Virus record (IMG/VR): IMGVR_UViG_3300042935_000617
Span: 1-26,971 of that record
Length of the DNA: 26,971 nucleotides
Reading direction: 5' to 3' (one strand)
From: a virus
Shown: positions 7,568-20,702 of the stretch, piece by piece
Layout of the letters: every line of letters starts with the position of its first letter
Numbering within the stretch: position 1 is the first letter of the stretch
Notes under the pieces: model-generated
What the model was told of the DNA's origin: nothing
Databases searched by the model: none
The model's input: the letters and a program-made list of their open reading frames with translations, nothing else
Made by a program: the position numbers and the translations under genes

Positions 7568-8722
7568 TTATATTTGTGTTGGAGTTATAGGTTTATCATC
7601 TACTACTGGTTGTTCTTGAACATCACCCGTTAAGAATAACGATAATGGTTTAACTTCCAATGTAGTTGGTTTTTCAAATTTCAATGATAATAATTTATTA
7701 AACACAGGTAACATTTGTTCCTGATATGGTTGAATTACCATCTTACGGAAATATTCACTGTGTTGTACTATTTCATCAGAACCACCCAATTTACCTGCTG
7801 TTGCAATACCGAATAACTCCGCACTTGAAACTCTATGTGAAGATAATATATTACGAGTAATATCATCGTTAAGTGTTTGATAGTAACTGTCGTGGTCGTC
7901 ACGAGGTATTTGTGTAATTTCAGGAGATTGTTCTTTAGATTCATTGAATGATATAATTGCTTGTCCTGCATTATCTGTACCACTATATTGTGATTCTAAT
8001 GCACGAACGATAATACGTTGTTCTTCTTCACCAGGAATACCATTGTTATAGTTAATCCATAAACTTGGATTCATACCCTTACGAAGATTGTTCATATGGT
8101 AATTAAGAGCCTCTATATTAATCTCAATTGCTCTTTGACCTGCTGACCAATCAGGTACAGCATAATAAGTCATTGAAGGCATGTAATTCTTAAAATATAA
8201 TAATTGAGATGGTTCTTTTTCTTCTTGAGAAAATCTTTTAATTTCTTCTGGTTGATATTTTCTTACATTAGACCAATCAGGTGAGTAATAATAACAATCA
8301 ATCTTATCATCTTCATTCAATTTACCACTTCTAATACGAGAAAAATCCACGTGATATATTTCAGCAATAGTTTTTCTATCTTTTGCCCATATAACATTTA
8401 AACAAAATCCCCCAAAAATCATATAATCTAAAGCACATTTTCTCATTACATCAGAAATATTCTCACTATCATTAATTAAATTAACTGTAGCCATTGGATT
8501 GTTTAAAGAAACAATACCATCACCCATGATTTGATTTACTTTTGATGTAATAACAGCTTTATGAATTGCACAGTTATCGTATAATCTTATAAAGTATTGT
8601 GGTAATAGATTATCCAAACCATAAAATACCCAAGGTACTCGTTGAACTACTTCTGAAAATACAGGTAATGAAGCCTGTGCAAAATCTATTTTCTTTAATT
8701 CAAATTTTTTTAAATCACTCAT
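7568..8722 (-). CDS. Portal protein
   Basis: At 384 residues this has the size and features of HK97/PBSX-type portal proteins. It has an early PWVFYGLDNLLPQYFIRLYDNCAIHKAVITSKVNQIMG segment (about 30-67), which is a family hallmark. A mixed alpha/beta clip region follows (YMIFGGFCLNVIW, AEIYHVDFSRIR). A stem helix around NIEALNYHMNNLRKGM precedes the wing/crown helices SSHRVSSAELFGIATAGKLGG and HSEYFRKMVIQPYQEQMLPVFNKLL. Twelve copies would form the DNA gate at one capsid vertex, contacting the terminase during packaging and the connector afterwards. It is flanked by the connector gene and a small beta protein. Confidence 0.88.
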   Translation of the reverse strand: MSDLKKFELKKIDFAQASLPVFSEVVQRVPWVFYGLDNLLPQYFIRLYDNCAIHKAVITSKVNQIMGDGIVSLNNPMATVNLINDSENISDVMRKCALDYMIFGGFCLNVIWAKDRKTIAEIYHVDFSRIRSGKLNEDDKIDCYYYSPDWSNVRKYQPEEIKRFSQEEKEPSQLLYFKNYMPSMTYYAVPDWSAGQRAIEINIEALNYHMNNLRKGMNPSLWINYNNGIPGEEEQRIIVRALESQYSGTDNAGQAIISFNESKEQSPEITQIPRDDHDSYYQTLNDDITRNILSSHRVSSAELFGIATAGKLGGSDEIVQHSEYFRKMVIQPYQEQMLPVFNKLLSLKFEKPTTLEVKPLSLFLTGDVQEQPVVDDKPITPTQI

Positions 8723-9843: not shown

Positions 9844-10821
9844 TTAAGCTAAACCGTTAGTTGCAAAATACTTTGTACTTCCAAAAGTAGCAATAGTTGC
9901 ACCATAGTTATAGTTTGCACGTAGACCAATTCTATCAAAGTCAATTGAATACCAAGCTCTTAAAGTCTCGTCTGATAACAAATCTACACCATATACCATA
10001 TATTCAGCTGGTCCAATTACCACTTGATTAGAACCGTTCAAACCTAATGTAGGAACGACTTTAATATTTGTGTTTGGATGTATTGCACTCATGTTAGAAG
10101 TAACATCTGTACCACCAATGTAATTAGTGAAGAAGTTAGCTCTTGTTAAAGCTTGTACATATAAACGGAAGTTAGAATAAGAAAGGAATACTACTAAATC
10201 TTCACGAACTAAAGCGTTTGCATCTAATACGTTGATTAGCTGATCTATTTCTGTTATGGGGTTACCTGAAGTACCATATGATGCTGAACTTGAGAAAGTT
10301 GTACCACTTGAAGAAGCTACTGCTGCTGCAAATGTGTTACCAGTGTTTTGAGAAATTAAGAAAGCGAAACCGTTAAAACAGTCACCTGATACGGTACGAG
10401 CTTGCCATAATTTTGTTTCAACACGTTGTTCAATTTGCTTTCTTTTCAAATCCATGATCATTTGTTCAAATGGAACAGTTTCTTGTGTTTGACCTGCTTT
10501 CATCAACATAGACTGATATGTCGCGAACAAGTCCTTGTAGCACAAAGTTTCATATAGGGTCTCAGGACATGTTGTGATTGAATGTTGTGTAAAAGTTGTT
10601 GTACCTGATGGGTTTAAAGAACAGTTACCTGCTTGGAATACTGGAGTTGAATCCAATAAGTTTAAAGCTTGTGTACCTTTAATACCTGTACGTACATTTA
10701 CGATAGAAGCTGTAGTTCCACCGATAAGTGCTTTCGCTAACAATTCACCACCTACTTGGTCAGAATAACCACCAATGGTAGATACGTCATACGAAAATTT
10801 TTGATTTTTTAAATTACTCAT
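9844..10821 (-). CDS. Major capsid protein (HK97-like)
   Basis: The 325-residue sequence matches Bacteroidota-phage major capsid proteins. It has an N-terminal GGELLAKALIGGTTASIVNVRTGIKGTQALNLL (about 24-56). A Cys-containing CPETLYETLCYKDLFATY stretch (about 85-102) and a spine helix PFEQMIMDLKRKQIEQRVETKLWQ (about 117-140) follow. A long domain then ends in IGPAEYMVYGVDLLSDETLRAWYSID and IGLRANYNYGATIATFGS. Hundreds of copies form the icosahedral shell. It follows the scaffold gene directly and is followed by an intrinsic terminator, as expected for the most abundant product. No N-terminal delta domain is fused, consistent with the separate scaffold. Confidence 0.9.
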   Translation of the reverse strand: MSNLKNQKFSYDVSTIGGYSDQVGGELLAKALIGGTTASIVNVRTGIKGTQALNLLDSTPVFQAGNCSLNPSGTTTFTQHSITTCPETLYETLCYKDLFATYQSMLMKAGQTQETVPFEQMIMDLKRKQIEQRVETKLWQARTVSGDCFNGFAFLISQNTGNTFAAAVASSSGTTFSSSASYGTSGNPITEIDQLINVLDANALVREDLVVFLSYSNFRLYVQALTRANFFTNYIGGTDVTSNMSAIHPNTNIKVVPTLGLNGSNQVVIGPAEYMVYGVDLLSDETLRAWYSIDFDRIGLRANYNYGATIATFGSTKYFATNGLA

Positions 10822-10844: not shown

Positions 10845-11585
10845 TTATTTATTTTTTAATGATTTAAGAGCTGCAATACGTGCAGACAATACATCATCAT
10901 TTTCTTTAGTAAACACTTCTGTTTTACCATCAGATAATTTCTTACCAGCTGGTTGTTTTTTGAATGAATTAAATTCATCCTGTAATGAAGAATAAGATTG
11001 TTCCATTTTAGAAACTTTCTCTCCCATTTTAGAGATAAACTCTTTTAATAATTCCATCATTTCTTTTGACATTTCCATTGGTTTGTCGATTGCAGGTTCT
11101 TCTAATGATTTTACTCCGTCTTCCATTTCATTTAGAACTTCTTCAATTCTTACAATAACTCCGTCTTTAGTTTCTAATTTAGTTCCGTCCTCAAGTTCAT
11201 GTACACCATCTGGAGCGGGTATTTCCGCATCAGCTGTAACTACAACTACTTTAGCACCTTCAACTAAACCATCACCAGAAACTTTAACTACTGTACCATC
11301 AACCAATTTTGCATCAACAAAAATCTCTTTTACAGATTTAATTTCTCCATCAATAACTTCAATGTCAAAATTTTCTTTTAATTTGTAAGACCCATCTTCT
11401 AAACTAACTTGCTCAAATGTTTCGTTAATTTTGTAGATTTTAGAACCAACCTCTAACTTTTCAGTATTAAGGATAGTATTGTCTTCTAATTTGAAAGATA
11501 ATAATTGACCTTCGTCATTCTTTAAGAAACCAAACTGTACCATAAGATTTTTAATTTCTTTAATTGCACTTTTTGAATTAGACAT
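10845..11585 (-). CDS. Head scaffolding protein with DG beta repeats
   Basis: The protein has 246 residues. The first two thirds are acidic, with repeated 'L.DGT/S...V..G.I' units: LEDNTILNTEKLEVGSK, LEDGSYKL, VDGTVVKV and LEDGTKLETKDGVIVRIEEVL. They suggest a small beta-helix or hairpin array. The last third (about 165-246) is helical and charged with a coiled coil (MSKEMMELLKEFISKMGEKVSKMEQSYSSLQDEF) and a lysine-rich end. This beta-plus-coil plan, located directly upstream of the capsid gene, is typical of scaffolds in Bacteroidota phages. It would guide shell assembly and be removed by the protease encoded by the preceding gene. A promoter-like motif precedes it. Confidence 0.75.
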   Translation of the reverse strand: MSNSKSAIKEIKNLMVQFGFLKNDEGQLLSFKLEDNTILNTEKLEVGSKIYKINETFEQVSLEDGSYKLKENFDIEVIDGEIKSVKEIFVDAKLVDGTVVKVSGDGLVEGAKVVVVTADAEIPAPDGVHELEDGTKLETKDGVIVRIEEVLNEMEDGVKSLEEPAIDKPMEMSKEMMELLKEFISKMGEKVSKMEQSYSSLQDEFNSFKKQPAGKKLSDGKTEVFTKENDDVLSARIAALKSLKNK

Positions 11586-11649: not shown

Positions 11650-14091
11650 TTAATCTTTAATATTCTTTAATACTTCTGCTACTTTATAAAGGAACATCTC
11701 CTCTTTTGTGAACGCTGCAACCTCTTCAAAGAACCCTGAAACACTAAATCCATTGAGTTTCCCTGATTTAACTTCCTCCCAAATCTTGGGATTATTTACT
11801 TTCATACTTACAAACCAAGTTCCAACAGGTAGATTTTCAAATCCGTATTTACTTGACTTATCTTGAACATCTTCTTTAATCCAAGATTCTAATACATGTA
11901 TATCCTTGATAGCTTTACCATCATGCATCGTGTCATTGTTGTCAGTATATTTGTTTCTCATATACTTTTCAGCAATCATCTTGATAGTTTCAGAAGTGAA
12001 ATAAACATAATAAGGATTACCTAAAGCATCCTTACGGAATATCTTTTGGTCAGGTATCATTGCTGGTCCAAGTACAATATGTTTCTCACTGTCTGTAGCG
12101 AAGTGTTGATTAGACATATCTTCATTATCATATTTCTTTTTCTTCTTTTTTGGTAATTGATCTACATAAGCAGGTAATCCACCCACATCATAACCCATAT
12201 CTTCTTCAGTTATTGGTCCACCAACAACCCAAGCATCACATGTTCTTGACGCAGCACACTTAAAATCAAACGCTTCACAATAACCCAAATCACCTGCGTC
12301 TATTGTATCCCACTCATTTGTATCGTTAATACCATTAGCAATACAATCCAACATACTTTTTGTTTGAACGAAGAACGCACAATTACCACATAAAGCCTTT
12401 TTTGCTGAAGGTAAATCACCACCAAACATATCTGCTTTCTTCTTCCAATATTCCTCATTTGGTTCATTTGGATTCAATGGACCATAATTTGCAACATCAA
12501 TACATTCTTGTCTATTCTCTAAATTTGTTTCAACATCTTGTGTAGCATCAGGACAACTTTCTAAAAACTTTTGTTTATTGAATGTATTAACTTTACTTTC
12601 AGCCCAACTTAAAGCGGATAAACCTCCCCAACTATCATACATTAATTTACCACATCCATCATCATAACTTTTACTTTTTTCTAAATCTACTTTATGACGT
12701 GATAAATAACTATACATTCTTCTAACTGTATCTTCACTAATAGGTTCACCATTAGCAAGTTGATTAGCTCTAATCTTACCAACTTCAGTTCCACAACTTC
12801 CCCATCCATTTTCATCAACCCATTTCAATACCGCTTTTGCGTTGTTCTTAACACTATCAGGATAATCAGAAACACTTTCCATATTTTCTTTAATTGGAAC
12901 ACATCTTGGACTACCATCATCATTTAAACCAATTGGTTCATATCCTTCCCAACAAGGGTTAGGTGTAATTTCCATATTTTCTTTTGACATGTCAGCTTTA
13001 GGATGGTCCTTCGGTAACAAATCATAATCAGTATTGTATTTAGGATTTTCTGGTCTACCATTCTTTAATAGATATAGATAAGCATTGACACGAGCATAAG
13101 CCCATTGTTCTGCTGATTTAACTAAAGGTGAATGTGATGTATTAAAGGCTCCTAATCCACGTTGGAATACGGATTTAAGTTGTCCTAAAGTTGCTCTACC
13201 ATTCTTGGTATTACTTTCTTTTTCGTTAAACTCGTCAACCTTATTCTGTAAAGTTTTTTCTTGTTCTGCAGATACTTTAGCACTTTTACCTGATGCATCA
13301 CCTTTAGCTGAACCTTCACCCTGTGGGTTTTTGTTTGGTGTATCTGATTTTGGTGCCTTATCTGATTCTTTAATTCCACCTCTTGGTCCTACTTCAGCTA
13401 ATGATTCTTTAGATAAACCCAAATTCTTTATTGTAGATGGAGATGGATTGTTCATTGTCTTATCTGTAACTGTATTTGGTTGTAACCATTCAGGACTTAA
13501 TTCAACAGGGAATCCACCACCAGTGATTTTATTTCTATTAACCGATGACTTATTTGTAATATCACCTGTCTTTTTATAGAATATTCTAAACCATTCATGA
13601 CGACAATTATAACCACCTCTCCAAAATTGTGCTGATTGACCAAATGAATTAAGTTCATTCTCTACTTCCTCTATTCTCCATACAAAATTCTTTTGAATTA
13701 ATTGTCTACAAAATTGACGAGTTGTTGGAATAATTGCTGATTGTTTAATATTACTATTTAAAGCGTACTTATATCTAACTCTATAAAATGAATTATCTTG
13801 ATATGACTCATCGTTTGGAGTTGTTGCAAAGTTTTCTTTAACACTTTCAATTCTATCTATTTCCCAACCCTCATCCAATAATTCTTGTTCAGGTTGTCCT
13901 TTTGATAATAATTTACCCAAATAGGTTTCATCCTCATTATCGGGAATATGAAAATCTTCTTGTAATTCCTTTTTAAAAGCTATCCAGTTGACCATTATTG
14001 CTGGTTCATCAACTAAACTAATAGAATCTATTCCTGAAATTTCGTCGTCTTCTTGAATCTTTAATTCAAATATTTTTTCTTTCTTTATCAT
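11650..14091 (-). CDS. Mosaic prohead protease (XkdF/S78_2) with inserted head domains
   Basis: This 813-residue protein appears to be a chain of modules. Residues 1-40 carry GIDSISLVDEPAI, the usual N-terminal part of XkdF-type proteases. Residues 115-175 (FCRQLIQKNFVWRIEEVENEL, RGGYNCRHEWFRIFYKK) match a head-morphogenesis module. About 235-280 is a low-complexity linker; 300-365 is RGLGAFNTSHSP...NPKYNTDYDLLPKDHP; 376-400 is the CWEGYEPIGLNDDGSPRCVP unit. Residues 407-500 match a phage domain with CGTEVGKIRANQLANGEPIS and GCGKLMYDSWGG. A cysteine-rich module spans about 565-625 and a K6 linker lies at 648-653. The C-terminal protease body follows, with candidate catalytic His723 (MHD) and Ser783 (GFSVSG). 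It should cleave scaffold and capsid precursors; several insert roles are unknown. Confidence 0.82.
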   Translation of the reverse strand: MIKKEKIFELKIQEDDEISGIDSISLVDEPAIMVNWIAFKKELQEDFHIPDNEDETYLGKLLSKGQPEQELLDEGWEIDRIESVKENFATTPNDESYQDNSFYRVRYKYALNSNIKQSAIIPTTRQFCRQLIQKNFVWRIEEVENELNSFGQSAQFWRGGYNCRHEWFRIFYKKTGDITNKSSVNRNKITGGGFPVELSPEWLQPNTVTDKTMNNPSPSTIKNLGLSKESLAEVGPRGGIKESDKAPKSDTPNKNPQGEGSAKGDASGKSAKVSAEQEKTLQNKVDEFNEKESNTKNGRATLGQLKSVFQRGLGAFNTSHSPLVKSAEQWAYARVNAYLYLLKNGRPENPKYNTDYDLLPKDHPKADMSKENMEITPNPCWEGYEPIGLNDDGSPRCVPIKENMESVSDYPDSVKNNAKAVLKWVDENGWGSCGTEVGKIRANQLANGEPISEDTVRRMYSYLSRHKVDLEKSKSYDDGCGKLMYDSWGGLSALSWAESKVNTFNKQKFLESCPDATQDVETNLENRQECIDVANYGPLNPNEPNEEYWKKKADMFGGDLPSAKKALCGNCAFFVQTKSMLDCIANGINDTNEWDTIDAGDLGYCEAFDFKCAASRTCDAWVVGGPITEEDMGYDVGGLPAYVDQLPKKKKKKYDNEDMSNQHFATDSEKHIVLGPAMIPDQKIFRKDALGNPYYVYFTSETIKMIAEKYMRNKYTDNNDTMHDGKAIKDIHVLESWIKEDVQDKSSKYGFENLPVGTWFVSMKVNNPKIWEEVKSGKLNGFSVSGFFEEVAAFTKEEMFLYKVAEVLKNIKD

Positions 14092-17197: not shown

Positions 17198-19513
17198 TTA
17201 TAAACAAGAGGTTACATATGAACCAACTTGTCCTGTTGAACTATTATAATTATACGTTGCTGATGGAAGACCAATTACATTATCATTTACATATGAAAAA
17301 GAGAATGGTATTGTTCCTGCTGCATCTTGATAAATATATTGAGGAACCCCCAATATTGGATCACCACTATTTGGAACGTAATAACCTGGTGAATTTACTG
17401 CTATACAACATGCACTTGTAGTATTACCAAAGAAAAATCTCGTATTTGAATAACTCAATGATGATGGTGTACTCGTTGGAGTTGGTGTTGGAGTTGGAGT
17501 AGGTGTTATTGGTACTGGAATATCTCCTAAATTGAATTTTGTATTTCTACTATCAGGTGCAAATGAATAACTTACACCTAAACTACTTTGATTTAATATG
17601 CCATCATTTTTATTAATAGTCATTGAACCACTATTATTTGCTGATATTGTTACTGAAGTTAAACTATAAAAATCTTGTAATGAACCACTTACAGTTTGAT
17701 TAAAACGTAATGTATTCATTAGGGTAGGATTAAATTGTAAATAATTTAATGTATTGCTTCCAGAAATACTTCCACTTGATGCTCCACCACTATTAAAATG
17801 ACCCCATAAAAAAACAGATTGACTTGTATTATTATATATTTGTATTTGTGCAGAAATACCTGAACCTGTAACTGGATATACACCACTTGTTGTAGTGTAT
17901 GTTATTGCTCCTGATGGTGGTGTTGTTGGACAAGATGTACATCCCTGTATAACAGTACCAACTCCTGTTCCTGTAGATGGTGATGATACAGTCAAATATG
18001 TTGAACTACCAATTGAAGTTTTAACATAATTACTTCCACTAATCCAACTACCATATAGTTGTGTATTATCACAAAAATTAACCATACTTCCTGTGACAGT
18101 AAATGTTTGACTAGCCACAGCACAAGGGTCATATATATTTGTTCCTTTAACAATATTACCAACAAATTTAGTTGGAGTAGATGTAGGAGTTACAGTTGGT
18201 GTTGGAGTTGGAGTTAAAGTTGGAGTTGGTGTAGGGGTTGGATATATTGTAATTGGGTTACATTCACCAAAACTTCCATCATTATTTATACCTGATAAAT
18301 TTCCAGCTATATAATCATTATATTTTGTATAAGCACCACCATTAAATATTTTTCCATTATTATATGTCATATCAAATACTGCACTAACTGGTAATACATA
18401 TAAATTTGAATAATCAAATCCTAAACCTGTATTAAATGTTGTGTCTAATGTTCCATCTGAATTTAATCTAAATAATGCATTAATTGTTTGTCCACTATAA
18501 GTTTGTGTTGAAGGATAATCAACTGATATACCAACATATACTTCATTTGTATTATTATTATATAATCTAATTACATAATTATTTAATAAATTGTAAGGGT
18601 ATGAAGTATCTAATGTTCCATCTGAATTTAATCTAAATAAATATGAAACTGTATAACCGTCAATTGTAACAGTAGGTGAATAAACGGTACCAACTATTAA
18701 TTTACCATCTGATTGAATTACAATATCAGTAATACCTCTTGGTTGTGCATCAGATGGTAAACTCCAATTAAAATTTAAATTAAAAGTATTATCTATACTT
18801 CCATCTATGTTTAATCTAATGATTGGTCCACATGTAACACCACTATATGATCTAAAATCACCACCTACTATTAATTTTCCATTTGATTGTTGTCTTACAA
18901 TATTAATTGTACAACCTGAAGGAAAATATGTATTAAATGATAAATCTGTTCCTTGTAAGTTTTGATTAATTCTTACTATTGAATTTTGGTTCCTAATTCC
19001 AGTAGAATTATTACTAAAACGTAAAAAATTTCCATAAATCAATAATTTATTATCAGATTGAAAAGTTAAATATTTACATAAATAATCTTCAACATTACCA
19101 CCAGGCCAACCAAATTGTCCAATACTTCTTAAACGACTAAAACCATTTTGTGTATTATTATAACTTTCTACTCCAACATCATTACTCAAATATCCTGCTC
19201 TATGTCTTGTTAAAACAAATTGTGATTTTGTACTATTAAAAACTAAACCATTTACTATTGAACCTTCATTTTGTGTACCACTATTAGTAGCCAAAACTTT
19301 TCCTTCAGGTGATAATTTAAAAATATATTTTTGATTGGTATATGTGACACCACTATATATAGGTGTTATTACTGTATTATATGGTTTTAAATTTAAACCA
19401 CATATTAAATTACCCCAATTATCTGTTGCAATTCTTTGAACTACGGTATTAAAACCAGTATAAAAATTGGTACAAATACCTATATTATTAAAAAATGTTT
19501 TAAATAAAGACAT
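17198..19513 (-). CDS. Tail fibre protein with delta-60 propeller repeats and PT linkers
   Basis: The N-terminal 415 residues of this 771-residue protein contain about five blades of the delta-60/DUF5122 propeller type. Each has a 'DGKLIVGG.F' strand followed about 25-30 residues later by 'RLNSDGTLDTTFN'. Examples are KLLIYGNF at 156-163, GKLIVGGDF with RLNIDGSIDNTFN at 212-245, and GKLIVG with RLNSDGTLDTSY at 270-305. RLNSDGTLDTTFN also appears at 349-361. A PT linker (425-448) leads to a beta domain with CTSCP. A second PT linker (about 669-683) leads to a C-terminal cysteine-containing head ending TSCL. The modular build fits a distal, receptor-facing fibre or spike. Binding specificity cannot be read from the sequence. 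Confidence 0.75.
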   Translation of the reverse strand: MSLFKTFFNNIGICTNFYTGFNTVVQRIATDNWGNLICGLNLKPYNTVITPIYSGVTYTNQKYIFKLSPEGKVLATNSGTQNEGSIVNGLVFNSTKSQFVLTRHRAGYLSNDVGVESYNNTQNGFSRLRSIGQFGWPGGNVEDYLCKYLTFQSDNKLLIYGNFLRFSNNSTGIRNQNSIVRINQNLQGTDLSFNTYFPSGCTINIVRQQSNGKLIVGGDFRSYSGVTCGPIIRLNIDGSIDNTFNLNFNWSLPSDAQPRGITDIVIQSDGKLIVGTVYSPTVTIDGYTVSYLFRLNSDGTLDTSYPYNLLNNYVIRLYNNNTNEVYVGISVDYPSTQTYSGQTINALFRLNSDGTLDTTFNTGLGFDYSNLYVLPVSAVFDMTYNNGKIFNGGAYTKYNDYIAGNLSGINNDGSFGECNPITIYPTPTPTPTLTPTPTPTVTPTSTPTKFVGNIVKGTNIYDPCAVASQTFTVTGSMVNFCDNTQLYGSWISGSNYVKTSIGSSTYLTVSSPSTGTGVGTVIQGCTSCPTTPPSGAITYTTTSGVYPVTGSGISAQIQIYNNTSQSVFLWGHFNSGGASSGSISGSNTLNYLQFNPTLMNTLRFNQTVSGSLQDFYSLTSVTISANNSGSMTINKNDGILNQSSLGVSYSFAPDSRNTKFNLGDIPVPITPTPTPTPTPTSTPSSLSYSNTRFFFGNTTSACCIAVNSPGYYVPNSGDPILGVPQYIYQDAAGTIPFSFSYVNDNVIGLPSATYNYNSSTGQVGSYVTSCL
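17464..17508 (-). repeat. Second Pro-Thr linker of the propeller fibre gene
   Basis: A run of alternating Pro and Thr codons (ITPTPTPTPTPTSTP) near residues 669-683 joins the middle beta domain to the C-terminal domain. Boundaries are approximate. Confidence 0.75.
18170..18241 (-). repeat. First Pro-Thr linker of the propeller fibre gene
   Basis: Residues 425-448 are a PTPTPTPTLTPTPTPTVTPT-type run joining the propeller to the middle beta domain. At DNA level it is very similar to the linker at 16588-16707. Confidence 0.85.
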
Positions 19514-19514
19514 G

Positions 19515-20702
19515 TTAAATAAAGTTTTTAGTTGAAGCTAAATAAATTGTTGAGTTATTATAAGATACTAAAGATAAAACATCAACACTTGTTGTTGTAG
19601 TTGGAACATATATTGAACCAGCTGGTTGTTTAACTGAACCTGGAAAAGATACTGTTGCCGAACCTGTTGTATTAACTAATATTGTTACCGTATTTCCTGC
19701 TTTAATATTTGTTGGATTAATAAATGTATTTGAACCTGCTACTAATTGTAAAGTATAGAACGTTCCTCTTGAAAAATCTAAAGAAGCTGTATTTGAACTT
19801 ATTGTTAAAACATTTACATTTCCTTGAACAGAACCAGTTATAAATGTAGAACCACTAACATTTAATGAACCAGTAACACCAACATTATTAGTTGTATTCC
19901 AAACTGAACCAGTTAACGCAAATAAAGAATCACCACTTGTTCCTGAACTTCCATTAGTTCCTGATGAACCATTCGTTCCACTTGTTCCATTAGAACCACT
20001 AGTCCCTGAAGAACCGTCGGAACCTGACGAACCATTTGTACCATTAGAACCACTTGTCCCACTACTTCCATTACTACCTGATGTTCCACTACTTCCATTT
20101 GTTCCATTAGAACCTGATGTTCCACTACTTCCATTACTACCTGATGTTCCACTACTTCCATTTGTTCCATTAGAACCTGATGTTCCACTACTTCCATTAC
20201 TACCACTTGTTCCTGAAGAACCATTTGTTCCATTAGAACCTGATGTTCCACTACTTCCATTACTACCACTTGTTCCTGAAGAACCATTTGTTCCATTAGA
20301 ACCTGATGTTCCACTACTTCCATTTGTTCCATTAGAACCAGATGTACCTGAACTTCCATTTGTTCCATTAGAACCTGATGTACCTGAACTTCCATTTGTT
20401 CCATTAGAACCTGATGTTCCTGATGAACCATTTGTTCCATTACTACCAGATGTACCTGATGAACCTGAACTACCGTTTGTTCCATTACTACCACTAGTTC
20501 CTGAAGATCCGTTAGAACCTGATGTTCCTGATGAACCATTGGTTCCATTAGAACCTGACGTACCTGATGTTCCTGAAGAACCAATTAATGTTTCTTTTGT
20601 TACTTTAAAAGTGGTTGTTTCACCACTATTATTCATTACCAAATATACACCTGTTGTATTTCCTGTATAGAGTGGTAGACCTGATATTTTTACTTGTGAC
20701 AT
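19515..20702 (-). CDS. Collagen-like tail fibre protein
   Basis: The protein has 395 residues. Residues 1-40 (VKISGLPLYTGNTTGVYLVMN...TFKVTKETLI) form a short attachment domain common at the start of Bacteroidota phage fibres. Residues 41-257 are an uninterrupted Gly-X-Y array with X/Y limited almost entirely to Ser, Thr and Asn (one Asp pair region near the end). The array contains no proline. Residues 258-395 form a beta-rich C-terminal domain (GSLNVSGSTFITGSVQGNVNVLTI, FYTLQLVAGSNTFINPTNI) that probably trimerises the fibre. It is a structural appendage for host contact. The stop lies one base before the start of the next fibre gene. Confidence 0.85.
   Translation of the reverse strand: MSQVKISGLPLYTGNTTGVYLVMNNSGETTTFKVTKETLIGSSGTSGTSGSNGTNGSSGTSGSNGSSGTSGSNGTNGSSGSSGTSGSNGTNGSSGTSGSNGTNGSSGTSGSNGTNGSSGTSGSNGTNGSSGTSGSNGTNGSSGTSGSNGSSGTSGSNGTNGSSGTSGSNGSSGTSGSNGTNGSSGTSGSNGSSGTSGSNGTNGSSGTSGSNGSSGTSGSNGTNGSSGSDGSSGTSGSNGTSGTNGSSGTNGSSGTSGDSLFALTGSVWNTTNNVGVTGSLNVSGSTFITGSVQGNVNVLTISSNTASLDFSRGTFYTLQLVAGSNTFINPTNIKAGNTVTILVNTTGSATVSFPGSVKQPAGSIYVPTTTTSVDVLSLVSYNNSTIYLASTKNFI
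19932..20582 (-). repeat. Collagen-like coding repeat array
   Basis: About 650 bases encode Gly-X-Y units in 36-base (GTNGSSGTSGSN) and 27-base (GSSGTSGSN-type) blocks. In part of the array (about 20080-20330) these combine into near-identical 63-base higher-order repeats in tandem. Copy number is likely to vary by slippage or recombination, and short-read assembly of this stretch may be unreliable. Confidence 0.85.

Follow-up and report, generated by a model that had tools for sequence, protein, structure and literature searches.

A modular XkdF-type prohead protease of uncultured phages carries a linker that resembles the N-arm of the capsid protein

How does a prohead protease come to be in the head that it matures? 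The entry of prohead proteases into the assembling head is poorly understood beyond a few model phages. The question is raised by an 813-residue ORF, with some 620 residues between the N-terminal strands and the catalytic body of its protease, in a 26,971-base stretch of viral DNA from an IMG/VR virus record (the window), which we analysed by computation throughout, together with relatives taken from viral contigs (identified by L numbers), 186 of them distinct and full-length. An earlier note on this DNA had described the ORF as a mosaic in which several phage domains interrupt an XkdF protease. This holds up: matches in Pfam and PHROGs and the varying architectures of the relatives agree with it, and the ORF itself and the motifs quoted for it, including His723 and Ser783, were all recovered from the 813-residue translation.

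Table 1. Features of the protease ORF and of the neighbouring head genes (positions in the window)
Feature	Positions	Strand	Residues	Remarks
Whole protease ORF	11650..14091	minus	813 aa	ATG at 14091, stop 11650-11652; XkdF-type prohead protease with inserted modules
N, N-terminal protease piece	13972..14091	minus	1-40	two predicted strands, LVDEPAI
A, portal-C-terminus-like module	13399..13953	minus	47-231	RGGYNCRHEW
B, DUF5824 module with low-complexity lead	12988..13398	minus	232-368	
C, CWEGYEPIG unit	12886..12969	minus	375-402	
D, all-helical domain	12556..12885	minus	403-512	phrog_2859; AlphaFold2 pLDDT mostly >85
E, cysteine-rich module	12196..12555	minus	513-632	
Lk, capsid-N-arm-like linker	12130..12195	minus	633-654	MGYDVGGLPAYVDQLPKKKKKK
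F, Peptidase_S78_2 catalytic body	11653..12105	minus	663-813	Pfam E 4e-18
Scaffold-like protein	10845..11585	minus	246 aa	homology to the C-terminal part of P12024L gp01, E 1.4e-13
Putative major capsid protein	9844..10821	minus	325 aa	N-arm, residues ~8-32 (window 10726-10800), resembles Lk
Portal protein without module A	7568..8722	minus	384 aa	Pfam Phage_portal E 2e-14; phrog_33693 E 1e-37

The catalytic body is securely recognised in Pfam, where Peptidase_S78_2 (PF14550) matches residues 666-789 at 66.1 bits against a curated cut-off of 24, and DUF5824 matches residues 290-355 at 26.6 bits, barely over its cut-off of 25. In PHROGs, phrog_2859 matches residues 410-509 (E 1e-16). Across 260 non-redundant relatives, the candidate catalytic residues His723 and Ser783 are conserved in 100% and Glu735 in 99%. 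The motif GIDSISLVDEPAI lies at residues 20-32, CGTEVGKIRANQLA and GCGKLMYDSWGG are both present and belong to one domain rather than two, and RGGYNCRHEW, CWEGYEPIG, CGNC...KCAASRTC and a run of six lysines (K6) are all found in the ORF. Judged by its sequence, the ORF encodes a member of the XkdF/S78_2-type family of prohead (capsid-maturation) proteases and is predicted to act in the proteolysis of head proteins.

We modelled the full-length protein with AlphaFold2 from an alignment of 51 sequences. The pTM was 0.35, with ordered blocks at about residues 1-30, 44-175, 270-350, 410-512 and 663-795 and low-confidence stretches at 176-249, 360-378 and 566-660. The N piece forms strands at 6-11 and 20-27, Lk falls in a segment with pLDDT below 50, and module E is poorly modelled, partly because few alignment rows cover it. 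This suggests separate domains joined by flexible linkers; the prediction did not give the single continuous fold that would have spoken against the earlier note. A Foldseek search of the PDB returned no resembling structure for either of the two models, and predicted viral proteins named XkdF do resemble the model.

The modules differ in where else they are met. Residues 89-177 of module A match the PHROGs portal family phrog_33693 (profile positions 422-513 of 560, E 8e-7), and a motif like that of module A sits at the C-terminus of the 560-residue portal of Nonlabens phage P12024L. The module is thus placed at the C-terminus of the portal in P12024L (L240; 179-1228, 3405-5087) and in the interior of the protease in the group to which the window belongs, whose own 384-residue portal is without it. 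The earlier label of a head-morphogenesis module for RGGYNCRHEW found no backing, since Pfam gave no MuF or SPP1 gp7 match at E values up to 1 and the only family tie is to the portal C-terminus. Module A thus looks like a domain that was moved between two head genes, those of the portal and the protease.

Modules B, C, D and E also occur as free ORFs. HMM matches to the C unit were found in free ORFs of about 100 residues and in fusions. The unit is often accompanied by a second one ending like CIGDLTAEYGTEQASAICYAQW (L064, 6047-6355, and comparable free ORFs of ~100 residues), and this second unit is also found inside some proteases. Translated searches (tblastn) with domain D matched an annotated portal, prohead protease, major capsid protein and others in other phages; matches came from haloarchaeal viruses and from phages of Vibrio, Roseobacter and Synechococcus. 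D is probably a widespread, mostly head-associated domain. Module E has conserved cysteines at 513, 568, 571, 583, 605, 612 and 618 in an alignment of 30 sequences, and is free or fused in other phages, where its GenBank label is ‘high potential iron-sulfur protein’. An assignment to that class by sequence is unsupported by Pfam, which gave no HIPIP match to the module at E values up to 1, or by the PDB, in which sequence and profile searches with the module found no HiPIP. Its spacing is C-x2-C-x33-C-x12-C plus three further conserved cysteines, with a middle gap longer than that typical of HiPIPs. The earlier claim that such modules exist outside this ORF, on their own or joined to further head proteins, is borne out in other phages and viral contigs.

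Among the 186 relatives, the N strands and the protease body are kept while the region between them varies, giving 47 module orders and protein lengths from 194 to 1095 residues. The modules met include A, B, C, D, E, a HAD-like domain, a zinc-ribbon-like unit and others. The earlier note held that the N piece and the XkdF body normally lie close together; this is true of a subset of relatives (46 of 186 have them within 60 residues), but in 137 of 186 they are more than 200 residues apart, and large inserts are therefore common in this phage group.

Comparison of near relatives points to exchange of whole modules. The protein of L007 has a body 96% identical to that of the window, yet it is without B and E and carries a HAD domain and another unit at the place of B. 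DNA alignments show that the two unusual blocks of the window protein have sharp breakpoints, at ORF nucleotides ~686-694/1105-1120 and 1505/1891-1897, with flanks up to 89% identical and a short shared sequence near one breakpoint. Module E of the window has a copy of 85% identity in a protein whose body shares only 36%; for module B the corresponding values are 91% and 47%. B is conserved everywhere (~80-90%, even in relatives whose protease domains diverge), and its loci were retrieved through their likeness to B, so that high B identity alone is no proof of recent transfer. Presence or absence between near relatives is the stronger evidence of module exchange. The region between the N strands and the catalytic body is thus a slot for insertable, swappable modules. 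In four contigs the reading frame is broken within this slot (L049, 6600-6900; L081, 6600-7000; L279, 1900-2400; L301, 1500-2100). The resulting gene splits were considered as a sign of independent modules and set aside, as they look like frameshifts, probably from sequencing or assembly errors.

Whether the modules do anything once fused is a separate matter. They could be ordinary structural add-ons, joined by chance recombination and without delivered activity, in what would simply be a long, fast-evolving prohead protease. No enzymatic family was recognised among the modules of the window, and DUF5824 and phrog_2859 are families of unknown function, as such an account would have it. However, HAD-like phosphatase modules (with weak matches to 5-nucleotidase and Acid_phosphat_B in Pfam) and conserved-cysteine modules are present in some relatives, and the conservation of modules does not track that of the protease body. 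We consider this account somewhat unlikely; it is independent of the choice between docking and cleavage discussed below, and our confidences in the several readings therefore need not sum to one.

The genes downstream run in the order protease, scaffold-like, capsid-like, two small genes and portal. The scaffold-like protein has a weak match to the C-terminus of the head maturation protease family phrog_9427. Pfam, PHROGs and NCBIfam gave nothing significant for the 325-residue protein between scaffold and portal, and a search for a solved structure of its family found none. Among 11 divergent relatives, five match phrog_1623 (virion structural protein), two phrog_752 (major head protein) and two SU10_MCP (best E 0.002); with these weak family matches and the gene order, it is very probably the major capsid protein. 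Upstream of the head genes lies a gene for a 771-residue protein with DUF5122/delta-60 repeats, with a collagen-like tail fibre gene adjacent (window 17198-19513 and 19515-20702), and two neighbouring ORFs at 482-1830 match DNA methyltransferase families (phrog_799 and phrog_67). A search of bacterial genomes for a host assignment found nothing.

Next to the catalytic body, the linker with the K6 run, GYDVGGLPAYVDQLPKKKKKK, is similar to the sequence with which the capsid protein begins, KFSYDVSTIGGYSDQVGGELLAKAL. The earlier note had proposed this linker as a site of self-cleavage; the linker is indeed special, but the feature found there is its likeness to the capsid N-arm, which that note did not mention. 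We built profiles from protease linkers only, to avoid circularity. Searched against 1,553 other ORFs, a profile of 81 linkers matched 46 capsid proteins at E <0.01, in every case at residues 8-25, along with two truncated proteases; the best remaining match had an E value of 1.6. With three linker profiles and 3,686 non-protease ORFs, 49 of 51, 10 of 11 and 27 of 30 matches were capsid N-termini, and the others were truncated or frameshifted proteases; the window's own capsid protein was matched here at E 2.8e-4. Among the best, long matches are those of L401 (capsid FNFNLSGLAPYTDQVGGELLRKAIL, protease FNEDVSGLSPYVDEVSGELVRKPVL) and L290 (capsid KKKLSFNYDLTNLPTFNSYGSDMLIKAIL, protease KKQDNMDVDVSNLPPYNSYPTGDTKNDMLIKPVL).

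The likeness was also apparent when each capsid protein was compared with the protease of its own locus. Of 200 pairs, 112 had their best ungapped match inside capsid residues 1-45, where about 28 (~14%) would be expected. These pairs come mainly from six of the thirteen capsid clusters (46/51, 7/9, 2/4, 2/2, 18/68 and 35/48); the 18 of 68 from the ungapped test belong to cluster 6, the likeness in cluster 4 (L155) was seen by eye only, and a seventh, small cluster (2/3, low scores) was not counted. When all ORFs of a locus were ranked against the capsid N-arm, a noisy test, the protease took first place in 48 of 70 loci, compared with an expectation of 13. In all six clusters the N-arm of the own lineage outscored those of other lineages, in one case marginally (35.2 vs 34.7). 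With the similarity of protease body and capsid core removed, the partial correlation was 0.48, a value reached by none of 500 permutations but biased upward, as the segments were chosen through alignment to the own N-arm. By these comparisons, the N-arm likeness tracks the capsid protein of the same lineage. Where residues are identical, third-base agreement was 0.50, which equals the background, and the likeness therefore does not come from a recent DNA copy; recent gene conversion from the capsid gene was rejected on this ground. In a regular-expression count, the conserved K/R/E is followed by A (92) or S (26) in capsid proteins and mostly by P (24) or S (8) in the protease copies.

The likeness is not universal. 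With the methods used it was undetected in several capsid clusters with a separate scaffold (the L188 and L206 types), and Lk is therefore not essential to the protease family; the same types led us to discard the rule that the likeness occurs wherever the scaffold is a separate gene. It was likewise not found in P12024L, in which a scaffold-like part is fused to the protease and the insert is absent. In a lineage without the likeness the scaffold-like protein is longer (328-340 residues; L188, 2768-3787; L207, 4792-5775), and the scaffold profile matches three overlapping stretches of it, as if it were internally repeated.

What might the linker do? We give a probability of roughly 0.5 to Lk being a functional docking (capsid-targeting) peptide, by which the protease enters the prohead together with the modules fused to it. 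During head assembly, Lk would bind whatever binds the N-arms of the capsid protein, most probably the scaffold protein, a separate product of the neighbouring gene, or else the capsid lattice; the protease and its modules would thereby be built into the prohead, the protease would then mature the head from inside, and the modules would stay within the head, in accessory roles or for delivery. By analogy with other prohead proteases, the protein is expected to be packaged into the head; the partner of Lk and the roles of the modules are likewise inferred. In line with docking are the single copy of Lk kept by the close clade through all module changes, its place in a low-confidence segment of the model, and the failure to find it in P12024L, whose scaffold-like part is fused to the protease. 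There are three published precedents: the scaffold of phage 80alpha holds a helix of the capsid N-arm in the procapsid (PMC5744158), T4 internal proteins have only a capsid-targeting sequence in common (PMC3012670), and targeting of the SPN3US protease is considered to depend on its own propeptide (PMC7411985). A fuller version, which we offer tentatively, has the protease recruit itself along with changing passenger domains by imitating the N-arm of its own capsid protein, imitation and capsid co-evolving and the slot serving as the exchange site for head-packaged effector domains.

Docking fits the N-arm likeness of Lk at least as well as cleavage does, and the main rival is that Lk and the capsid N-terminus are the same processing site of the protease, which would free itself from its modules and make the chain a head polyprotein. 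We know of no cleavage motif for XkdF proteases. Prohead proteases studied so far remove an N-terminal propeptide from the capsid protein (PMC7411985), and the capsid and scaffold proteins of 80alpha have a common N-terminal cleavage motif (PMC5744158). The position of Lk, in a low-confidence linker between modules and exactly once in each of 78 scanned proteases of the close clade (twice in none), whatever else is inserted, would also suit a cut site. Against this, linker profile searches found no copy of the motif at significant score in the scaffold-like protein, a usual substrate; in some lineages the shared stretch extends to ~25 residues, more than is usual for a protease motif; some of its capsid residues are invariant across divergent relatives, which is unusual for a removed propeptide; and in the capsid protein the motif is preceded by only ~9 residues in the window and by ~1 in L136 and L155. 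Such a shared processing site seems unlikely to us. That the likeness is a functionless leftover, inherited or due to chance, such as an old duplication of the capsid 5' end turned spacer between modules, would suit the several lineages of the same gene order in which it was not found but is quite improbable, as the protein likeness persists despite background third-base agreement, a single copy survives module exchange in the close clade, and the likeness follows the own capsid protein.

If Lk docks, a widespread group of uncultured phages would have a short targeting signal that could become a tool to load proteins into phage heads, and the exchangeable modules would be candidates for delivered or head-internal functions. 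If the protease instead cuts at Lk, this gives a substrate motif for the XkdF family. Searches of an open-access full-text library, which lacks many papers, turned up no account of a phage protease with a peptide like the capsid N-arm, and this is weak evidence that such a peptide is new.

The closest known protein is gp01 (XkdF) of P12024L, which has the same His/Ser body, with the N strands directly before it, and is encoded beside scaffold and capsid genes. It differs in having no insert and a scaffold-like part at its own C-terminus, whereas the window has a separate scaffold gene, the long insert and the N-arm-like peptide. In its working, the window protein may resemble a polyvalent protein or a carrier that takes cargo to the capsid. 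The polyvalent proteins that Iyer et al. 2017 (PMC5512222) describe from phages and conjugative elements combine unrelated domains in one polypeptide in changing order; some embed a peptidase and have been likened to polyproteins, and some are fused to the head proteins MuF or portal. The window protein is likewise multi-domain and variable in order among its relatives. In contrast to those polyvalent proteins, its frame is the head protease itself, and ArdC-N, MuF, PBECR and 2H, domains named for that class, were absent from it in Pfam searches at E values up to 1 and from seven relatives at E values up to 0.01. T4 internal proteins (PMC3012670, PMC7411985) bring diverse cargo into the head by a short conserved peptide, as we propose here. 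The T4 targeting sequence is N-terminal and cut off by the protease, whereas Lk is capsid-like and internal, within the protease itself, and beyond capsid proteins and broken proteases no non-protease ORF among those searched matched it. In phage 80alpha (PMC5744158) the procapsid scaffold holds the capsid N-arm, and an N-terminal motif is common to two head proteins; that motif is a host-protease site in the capsid and scaffold proteins, whereas here the likeness lies in the phage protease.
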